From: an uncultured Clostridia bacterium
GTDB lineage: Bacteria; Bacillota; Clostridia; Christensenellales; UBA1750
Assembly: GCA_944383925.1 (NCBI GenBank)
Contig: CALWRM010000134.1
Location: 1 to 35,819, forward strand
Reading direction: 5' to 3'
DNA: 35,819 nt
The position numbers and the translations under genes were made by a program. Shown piece by piece: positions 8,698 to 35,819 of this stretch. The notes under the pieces are model-generated. The model saw only the letters and a program-made list of their open reading frames with translations. It was not told where the DNA came from and did no database searches. Numbering within the stretch: position 1 is the first letter of the stretch; each line of letters begins with the position of its first letter.

Positions 8698-8799
8698 AAA
8701 AAACGACCCCTTTCTTAAAGCGTTTTTGAGCCTAAACGATACGTCCAGGGTCCAAAAACGTTTAAAAAAGGGGGAAATGCCCAAATTTTAAGCGCTTTG

Positions 8800-8924
8800 C
8801 CTTCTTCCATCCGGACTGTAACCGTCGGCCCCGGAATTGCGCCGGGTCTGCGCGCGGCCCAAGGGCCGCCGCTGGCGGGCTATCACCGCCGGTGGGGACT
8901 TTCGCCCCGCCTTGAAGACGTAAG
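8800..8924 (-). promoter_or_regulatory. FMN riboswitch (RFN element)
   Basis: On the minus strand the conserved pieces come in order: GGGGCGAAAGTCCCCACCGG (8907-8888), CGGTGATAGCCCG, a variable GC-rich arm, GGGCCGACGGTTACAGTC, and the closing AGTCCGGATGGAAGAAGG (8817-8800). These are the six-helix RFN core and its end signature. The following hundred bases before ribU hold AT-rich segments and a CCCCCTTTTTT run; the switch could act by early termination or by hiding the ribosome site, which the sequence does not settle. FMN binding normally turns expression off. Confidence 0.95.
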
Positions 8925-11784: not shown

Positions 11785-11858
11785 GTGTTTCCCCCTTTGC
11801 AAGGCCATAACAAAGACGGCCGCGCCTGCTCGCGTAGACAGCCTGAAGGGCCCGTTCC

Positions 11859-11983
11859 GGGCAGGCTTGTCCGCGGCACACGCCAACTTCCGCTTAGTGC
11901 TGCTGCCTTCCGGCCCTGACACGGTTCACGGCATAGCGTTGCACGGGGCCCGCCCCTCATCACAGAGCCTCCCAGGCTGCCCG
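11859..11983 (-). ncRNA. ffs: Signal recognition particle RNA (small bacterial type, 4.5S-like)
   Basis: The minus strand holds the universal SRP domain IV: GTGAACCGTGTCAGGGCCGG, then GAAGGCAGCAGCACTAAGCG, with the symmetric-loop GTCAGG and the GGAAG tetraloop. It is flanked by GTGCAACGCTA on the 5' side and GGCGTGTGCCG on the 3' side, as in E. coli 4.5S RNA. The ends are set by pairing GGGCAG (11983-11978) with CTGCCC (11864-11859) and are approximate; the primary transcript should start near 12007. No Alu domain is present, so this is the short form. Confidence 0.93.
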
Positions 11984-12013
11984 CGCCGGCATGCGCGGCC
12001 AGTAACTTTGTTT

Positions 12014-12042
12014 AGTATAGCGAAGACAGGGGAAAAAAGCAA
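12014..12042 (-). promoter_or_regulatory. Promoter of the SRP RNA gene
   Basis: TTGCTT (12042-12037), 17 bases, TATACT (12019-12014) on the minus strand. The start would be about 12007, some 25 bases before the folded RNA. No strong terminator separates the RNA from the ArsC/Spx-like gene 75 bases beyond, so read-through is possible. Confidence 0.8.
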
Positions 12043-12078
12043 GCAAATTTCCTGCAAACCTCCGCCCGTCTTGGGGGG

Positions 12079-34795: not shown

Positions 34796-35044
34796 ATGCA
34801 GATCCTTATGACCATCTTGGGCGTGGTGCTGGCCATCGACGCCCTGGCCCTGATCACCCTGGTTTTGATGCAGCAGGGCCGCTCCGCCGGCCTCTCCGGC
34901 GCCATCGCGGGCGGCGCGGAGACCTTCTTTGGCAAGAAGAAGGCCCAAAGCTACGAGGGCAAGCTGCTCCTGTTCACCAAGATCACCGGCACCGTCTTCA
35001 TCGTGCTGGCCATCGCCATGCTGGTGCTGCAAAAGTACGTCTAA
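34796..35044 (+). CDS. secG: Preprotein translocase subunit SecG
   Basis: Small subunit of the SecYEG channel, 82 residues, with two membrane helices (about 3-25 and 55-78). The loop LMQQGRSAGLSGAIAGGAETFFGKK, split by family pattern into QQGRSAGLSG and GAETFFGK, is diagnostic. GGGAGG lies nine bases before the ATG. In Firmicutes secG is usually followed by rnr and smpB; here an AT-rich insert lies downstream. Confidence 0.96.
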   Translation: MQILMTILGVVLAIDALALITLVLMQQGRSAGLSGAIAGGAETFFGKKKAQSYEGKLLLFTKITGTVFIVLAIAMLVLQKYV

Positions 35045-35104
35045 GCGCAAAAAAGGCGCGCCGCCGTTTAGCGGAGTGTTCGTAAGACCGTAAAATAGGT
35101 AAAA

Positions 35105-35133
35105 GGCGTGACCGTGAAGGTCACGCCCTTTTT
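35105..35133. terminator. Bidirectional terminator inside the left end of the insert
   Basis: GGCGTGACC (35105-35113) and GGTCACGCC (35119-35127) with AAAA before and CTTTTTC after. It can end secG transcription on the plus strand and mazG-like transcription on the minus strand. Confidence 0.85.
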
Positions 35134-35137
35134 CTTG

Positions 35138-35259
35138 AGAGGATAGCCGCTTTCGCGGCGCAAGGGATGCAGTCCCTTGTTCGGAACGCAGTAACGCAAC
35201 ATGCACATACTGGGATTGCCCCGTATAGAAGTGCGCCCTGTTTTTCAACAAATCGGAAT
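35138..35259. other. Structured non-coding segment of the insert
   Basis: Successive short hairpins GCCGC/GCGGC and AAGGGA/TCCCTT lie between the terminator and the 3' end of the MazG-like gene. No reading frame or known RNA was recognised. It may be the leftover of a structured RNA or of a larger element. Confidence 0.4.
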
Positions 35260-35586
35260 TTATCGTTCAGACATAAACTGCTCAAGGTTTCTTTCATGAT
35301 GATATTTTATTGAGGCTTTTTTATCTTTCTCCAGAATAACATCATTCAAGTCGATTTGGTTTAATGATGCAATCGCAAAAGCGTAATGAATAACATCCAC
35401 CAATTCATTGGCTAATTGAGATTTCAAATCTTCGTTAACAGAAGCCTTTCTCCCGTCCCGTTTATTTAGAACCTCCGCAACTTCACCTACTTCTTCAACT
35501 AATTTCATAAACAAGCTGGTATCAATACCATGACTCTTATAATGGTCAAATAGGTAATCTTCATAATCCGCAATGCTGATTTTCAT
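35260..35586 (-). CDS. MazG-like nucleotide pyrophosphohydrolase
   Basis: A 108-residue all-helical protein of the MazG/dUTPase-like family, which cleaves NTPs or dNTPs to the monophosphate. The metal-binding EExxE is E31-E32-E35 in KLVEEVGEVAEVL, and the partner E61/D64 pair is in ANELVDVIHYAFAIA. The length fits the short single-domain type found in phages and mobile DNA. The ATG at 35586 has GGAGAG seven bases upstream. Base and codon use (many A/T-ending codons) are sharply different from the GC-rich surroundings, so it was almost certainly acquired by transfer. It lies within the inverted-repeat element. Confidence 0.85.
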   Translation of the reverse strand: MKISIADYEDYLFDHYKSHGIDTSLFMKLVEEVGEVAEVLNKRDGRKASVNEDLKSQLANELVDVIHYAFAIASLNQIDLNDVILEKDKKASIKYHHERNLEQFMSER

Positions 35587-35629
35587 CGTACATCTCTCCA
35601 AATTTCGATTTGTAGGTCCGTTTAATTTT

Positions 35630-35657
35630 ATATTATCACATCACAGGAAAAATACAA
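35630..35657 (-). promoter_or_regulatory. Promoter of the MazG-like gene
   Basis: TTGTAT (35657-35652), 16 bases, TAATAT (35635-35630) on the minus strand, 44 bases ahead of the ATG. Confidence 0.6.
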
Positions 35658-35658
35658 G

Positions 35659-35692
35659 AACAGCCACCGCGGTTCGAACCATGGTGGCTGTT
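35659..35692. repeat. Long palindrome next to the right inverted end
   Basis: AACAGCCACC (35659-35668) and GGTGGCTGTT (35683-35692) pair perfectly around GC-GGTTCGAACC-AT, which is itself palindromic. On the minus strand it is followed by CTTGTATTTTT, so it may stop transcription entering from outside and insulate the MazG-like promoter just beyond it. Confidence 0.75.
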
Positions 35693-35709
35693 AACTGTCT
35701 TACGAACAC

Positions 35710-35819
35710 CTGCCTTTTCCGGGGGCACTTTTGTATGGGTCTGGATTTTTTACTTTTTCCGGGTTTTATTCTGGGAAGAATGGGACGAGCCAGAGGAGTG
35801 AGAGGAAGGATGCTTTCCC
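35710..35819. other. Right-edge segment, possible start of a gene
   Basis: A plus-strand frame opens at ATG 35735 and stays open to the window end, with further in-frame ATGs at 35780 and 35810. None has a well-placed ribosome site and the product was not recognised. secG is often followed by rnr, so the next gene may start here, but nothing confirms it. Confidence 0.25.

Follow-up and report, generated by a model that had tools for sequence, protein, structure and literature searches.

Towards the right end of the window, which is the whole stretch of 35,819 nucleotides analysed from an uncultured Clostridia bacterium, the gene secG (34796-35044, plus strand) is followed by a rho-independent terminator that is occupied by a small element. 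The left half of this terminator, an A-tract and a GC stem that are presumed to form one half of an attB site, lies at 35049-35069 on the plus strand and ends in a TT core at 35068-35069; a second copy of the TT stands at 35716-35717, also on the plus strand. Between the two copies, the element is bounded at each end by a putative attachment half-site of the P-arm type, the left one (35070-35094, plus strand) consisting of AGCGGA and GTGTTCGTAAGACCGTAAA, and the right one (35691-35715, minus strand) being inverted relative to it. Both are recognised from the inverted repeat and from the consensus NGSSSG-GTGTYCRTAARACAGTWAA, which describes both ends of 36 elements. A preliminary description of this DNA had set the limits at 35076-35709. 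The ends are real, and the inverted repeats at 35076-35094 and 35691-35709 (19 nt, 89% complementary) include a perfect 13-mer, GTGTTCGTAAGAC, but the element is better delimited as 35070-35715 with the TT core flanking it.

Other features claimed for this block have held up well. Its base composition is foreign (GC of 40.9% inside the element versus 64.9% in the remaining window), it contains one complete gene downstream of secG, no transposase is encoded within it, and the hairpins at 35101-35131 and 35659-35692 (both plus strand) are stronger than those of shuffled sequences, with z values of -5.3 and -4.9. The first of these hairpins, just within the left end, folds as a bidirectional terminator-like structure and has an equivalent in relatives, while the second, defined by its fold against shuffles, lies just within the right end. 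Between them are found an oriT-like region (35141-35241, plus strand), identified by homology to regions beside MobQ relaxase genes, the cargo gene (35260-35586, minus strand) and an AT-rich segment upstream of the latter (35594-35656, minus strand). This segment is kept between copies that carry different cargo and is a putative promoter; a consensus scan gave no support to the earlier statement that the gene has a promoter of its own. The element is without a match in Rfam, and the only matches of the window, an FMN riboswitch (8795-8923) and a bacterial large SRP RNA (11811-12074), both above the Rfam gathering scores, lie elsewhere.

The cargo gene, the sole gene of the element, is predicted to encode a MazG-like nucleotide pyrophosphohydrolase, of 108 amino acids from an ATG at 35586, which follows GGAGAG, or of 113 amino acids from an alternative TTG start at 35601. 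That it is MazG-like, as proposed before, is confirmed by a match to Pfam MazG (PF03819; 31.1 bits, the cut-off being 22), and the metal-binding motif EExxE...ExxD is present in the protein as EEVGE and NELVD. Its best matches in the PDB are 2q73, 2q9l and 2q5z, which we take to be the integron-cassette iMazG from Vibrio. The suggested link to defence found no backing, as PADLOC returned no match for the three MazG cargo proteins. The gene may be expressed and useful to its host. MazG-like genes occur in at least three elements and were probably acquired independently, since they share only 26-37% identity with that of the window. The preliminary description was right that MazG is the only cargo of this element; in the family at large, it is one cargo among many and is replaceable.

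The junction between secG and rnr is an empty site in relatives, where the congener G001 and others have a plain terminator only. A second copy, beginning with a methyltransferase-like gene, is held by contig C17 of the same genome, and the right flank of this copy leads into rnr. Joined to the rnr-side flank of C17, the secG terminator half forms a perfect 21-bp stem (-42.1 kcal/mol), and with the right flank found in the window it forms only 3 bp of pairing. The two contigs share 75 identical bases across the right end (35645-35719), and the assembly has probably swapped the right flanks of the two copies at this repeat. The right flank in the window, 35720-35819, is therefore probably foreign to this insertion site; these last 100 bp were not found elsewhere in the genome itself or in 20 relatives. 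The C17 copy (locus L002, G000:C17, 1-1265) comprises the start of the methyltransferase-like gene, the same upstream segment and a further stretch of approximately 1 kb, in which a lipoprotein-like gene and a second nic-like sequence, TAAGTGCTCCCTT, are found; this may be a case of a nested element.

Searches with the ends, as the preliminary description had advised, revealed the same ends at many other sites in this genome and its relatives. They recur on C17, and members of other families in this order also have them, with different genes in between; the end pattern, with two mismatches allowed, matched in 12 of 13 genomes with up to 17 copies each, compared with 0-2 for a reversed control pattern. 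A scan of a genome collection, in which most of the genomes analysed are metagenome assemblies, gave at least 118 stretches with these ends, mostly from gut Clostridia. Paired elements were delimited from these searches, 36 distinct ones at first and 43 in the later statistics; most of the approximately 43 elements measure 0.5-2.2 kb, their cargo is unrelated, and none of the delimited pairs encloses a transposase. Near-identical copies are seen at different sites, and the same ends are seen around different cargo: the 832-bp elements of L170 and L180 are 99.4% identical and occupy different terminators in two genomes, L183 and L258 have end regions that are approximately 95% identical and different interiors, and L162 and L256 share one half of the cargo at 97% and differ in the other. 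The element of the window has no match in phage records, and in plasmid records its oriT part alone is matched. Judged by these comparisons, the block is a mobile element that is not autonomous and has one MazG-like gene as its cargo, as had been proposed.

The range of cargo is wide. Pfam matches include GNAT and arylamine acetyltransferases, methyltransferase, SnoaL-like, pyridoxamine oxidase-like, BioY, MerR, ferredoxin-type and aminoglycoside-adenylyltransferase-like proteins, and further candidates, picked by eye from the open reading frames, are sigma factors, kinase-like proteins and an ABC exporter. At L140 (5276-6062), the element carries a nucleotidyltransferase that matches the aminoglycoside-2''-adenylyltransferase family PF10706 and is possibly a resistance gene. 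In L101, L121 and the autonomous L168, the cargo includes a Sigma-70-like factor that precedes a larger protein or is fused to it. Besides their main cargo, L133, L147, L182, L195 and L200 have another gene near the oriT, of the DUF559 type (the Pfam match was run on L195), and this block is common to some of them at 82-85%.

The flanks of the elements reveal where they land. On both sides, going from the outside inwards, an A-tract is followed by a GC stem, an A/T loop and then the end of the element. When the two flanks are rejoined, they fold as a terminator hairpin with a mean of -19.9 kcal/mol for true pairs versus -10.5 kcal/mol for mismatched pairs, and an ungapped stem of at least 8 bp is formed by 22 of 43 true flank pairs versus 2.7% of mismatched ones. 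Because the joined flanks restore terminator hairpins, the elements lie within the loops of rho-independent terminators. The sole clear target duplication consists of two bases, at positions -8/-7 and +7/+8 (identity 0.79 versus 0.46 when shuffled). Read in the frame of the oriT in 35 elements, this core is TT/TT in 20, AT/AT in five and AA/AA in none, the remaining 10 pairs being mismatched.

A duplicated core with a fixed orientation points to a large serine recombinase (LSR) and not to a DDE transposase. A DDE-type duplication was considered on the 2-bp signal and rejected since the orientation of the core is fixed in the oriT frame. A serine integrase would be expected to give such a pattern, since the polarity of its insertion depends on nothing but the core dinucleotide, according to work cited in PMC3783163. 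The half-site length of approximately 25 bp is consistent with an attP arm of a serine integrase (PMC3783163). The ends, which the preliminary description had treated as transposon termini, behave instead like half-sites at which an LSR would attach.

By homology, the interior of the element appears to contain an oriT of the MOBQ type. The oriT-like region precedes the cargo and ends with an inverted repeat (35207-35226, nic-proximal) and the nic core AAGTGCGCCCT (35229-35239), which fits the published MOBQ oriT consensus NWACCNNTAAGTGCGCCCTYNN (PMC3832669). With up to two mismatches, the nic core is present in 40 of 43 elements, leaving three without it, versus 4 of 59 equally long flanks. 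The homologous region adjoins MobQ genes in L168, L205 and L209 and in the Pusillibacter faecalis plasmid pMM59_01; it is also found beside a MobA/MobL-like gene, judged by eye, in genome G040, and in a Subdoligranulum variabile plasmid typed as MOBQ. In the window, the nic core is exact, but approximately 45 bp of the upstream hairpin of the relatives is missing; this shortened oriT may still be functional. At least two types of oriT were seen (L130, L133, L161, L192 and others), one long with several hairpins and the other short, with little beyond the nic-proximal repeat.

Candidates for the missing functions are encoded beside the same end. At L168, L205 and L209, the exact end lies 54 bp past the gene for a serine recombinase of 572 amino acids; genes for a MobQ relaxase and a DUF3847 protein come next, together with an oriT. 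The L168 enzyme has Resolvase, Recombinase, zinc ribbon and DUF4368 domains; the domains were assigned on L168 and extended to L205 and L209 by sequence homology, the recombinases being 95-96% identical. A matching right end for L168 was located at G297:C33:8939-8957, with the complementary terminator half outside it, giving a mobilizable element of approximately 8.4 kb. L168 is the only complete helper-like element with both ends; L205 and L209 have homologous left parts, and no right end was located for either. For most recombinases of approximately 46-77% identity to it, a diverged half-site with a terminator-like flank is seen 34-91 bp beyond the aligned gene end, the comparison being weak for the most distant ones, and for the nearest LSRs outside the three loci (60-77% identical) the half-sites differ at one to four positions. 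DUF4368 is frequent in a clade of multi-targeting LSRs to which TndX-like enzymes belong, and a TT core is shown for one example (Durrant et al., PMC10083194). In the genome of the window, which is 97% complete, neither an LSR at E<=1e-60 nor a MobQ was detected. Given this completeness, both are likely absent, and the window copy may therefore be stranded until a helper enters.

Taken together, we consider it very probable that the element is a minimal non-autonomous mobilizable element, in which LSR half-sites and a MobQ oriT are served by helpers in trans and terminators are the target. The ends, the core, the terminator target, the homology of the oriT, the helper-like elements and the empty sites can all be read from the sequence. 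The inverted ends would be two attP half-sites for a TndX/TnpX-type LSR with DUF4368, whose target would be the loop of rho-independent terminators. Such a helper LSR, acting in trans, would recombine the ends at the 2-bp core to release an excised circle; a MobQ relaxase, likewise provided in trans, would nick the oriT, and a conjugation machine supplied by a helper would move one strand. In the recipient, an LSR would insert the circle into another terminator by joining TT core to TT core, with the core fixing the orientation. The terminator-like hairpins near the ends of the element may compensate for the broken terminator of the host.

Three other readings have to be weighed against this one. 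That the block is simply a fixed chromosomal gene of the lineage with accidental inverted repeats was conceivable from the view of a single contig, yet the empty sites in relatives, the difference in composition and the recurrence of these ends, across many genomes, around other genes already refute it, and we give it practically no credence. A transposon-like origin, in which a MITE or MIC depends on a DDE transposase in trans, would account for the inverted ends, the small size and a cargo gene without a transposase, all as in MICs, and it has a precedent in MTnSag1 and tISCpe8, two very small mobilizable elements whose inverted ends measure 25 bp and whose transposase is of the IS1595 type. 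Yet no paired element has a transposase between these ends, the duplication is of 2 bp with an orientation fixed relative to the oriT and not of 8 bp, and at three loci it is a large serine recombinase that adjoins the same end. IS1595, the DDE family that was searched for by profile (PF12762), was also tried as a partner and set aside, its transposase being absent from ten genomes that bear elements or are related. This reading is accordingly held to be quite improbable, and the window element is probably not a MITE-type transposon.

Closer to the mark, although still unlikely, is a decayed remnant, that is, a CIME left after an old mobilizable element had lost its recombinase and relaxase genes. 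CIMEs by definition lack integration and transfer genes and retain attL and attR, and the window genome, with neither LSR nor MobQ detected and with a shortened oriT, would suit such a history. Against it, the short form is abundant and uniform with different cargo, L170 and L180 are nearly identical in different terminators of two genomes, and half-sites, oriT and intact cargo together in dozens of copies would not be expected from decay. The window copy by itself could be inactive. For the family, the mobilizable reading remains preferred. In its most likely form, the window element is a minimal mobilizable cassette that has neither integrase nor relaxase and is made of attachment half-sites, an oriT and one gene, the half-sites and the oriT being apparently borrowed from larger elements.

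It is instructive to set this cassette beside known systems. The relaxase-less mobilizable elements of Firmicutes MTnSag1 and tISCpe8, as presented in a review (PMC5704250), are likewise very small, with inverted ends of approximately 25 bp and one cargo gene, and are mobilized in trans by a conjugative element, as the window element would be. According to the same review, they encode an IS1595-family DDE transposase, produce 8-bp duplications in AT-rich targets and have an oriT that lies inside the resistance gene and is unrelated to that of the helper, whereas the window element has no recombinase gene, a 2-bp core, a terminator target and a MobQ-homologous oriT. Integrative and mobilizable elements of the Tn4451/TndX type share the type of recombinase, a serine integrase with a 2-bp core and low site specificity, and L168 is of this general type, although it uses MobQ and Tn4451 is listed with MobV; the window element differs from Tn4451 in that the recombinase and the relaxase are both missing. 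As a candidate substrate of a DUF4368 LSR, it has the same half-site that lies beside the LSR in the autonomous L168 and a 2-bp core that appears to set the orientation.

Of the oriT or relaxase expected of an IME, the element has a putative oriT, namely the homologous region with its MOBQ nic core; it is not a strict IME because it encodes no integrase of its own, the MazG-like gene being the only one in 35070-35715. Like a CIME, it has kept attachment sites without integration and transfer genes, and attL and attR are represented by half-sites and terminator halves on both sides, but the description of CIMEs is of remnants that decay from a resident ICE or IME and move only in cis, through accretion, whereas this family is dispersed, with an oriT and exchangeable cargo. 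With MICs and MITEs it shares a passenger gene between inverted ends and the lack of a transposase, and it differs in having predicted serine-recombinase half-sites as ends and an oriT-like region. Integron gene cassettes are also mobile one-gene units with diverse cargo; in contrast, each unit of this family has its own two ends and an oriT, and the units are scattered over terminators. In passing, neither attC nor a tyrosine integrase was noticed in the elements. No description of terminator-targeting, integrase-less oriT cassettes was found in the open-licence literature.

Surveys of mobile elements rely mostly on genes for integrases, transposases and relaxases, and units without any of these are easily overlooked. 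The family appears to be common in gut Clostridia and to move ordinary single genes across species, among them genes for MazG, acetyltransferases, methyltransferases, sigma factors, a BioY-type transporter and a nucleotidyltransferase of an aminoglycoside-resistance-like family. The use of a terminator loop as the landing site spares coding sequence, and a simple signature for searches is available in the combination of ends, TT core and oriT. DUF4368 recombinases are relevant as integration tools, and terminator targeting would be the natural specificity of one clade of them. On balance, we lean towards the view that these elements represent an unnamed and widespread class of doubly dependent gene cassettes in gut Clostridia, 0.5-2 kb in size, which rely on a helper-borne recombinase and relaxase and land in terminators. 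If this is true, such cassettes would play the part of an integron in dispersed form and shuffle single genes from one species to another.
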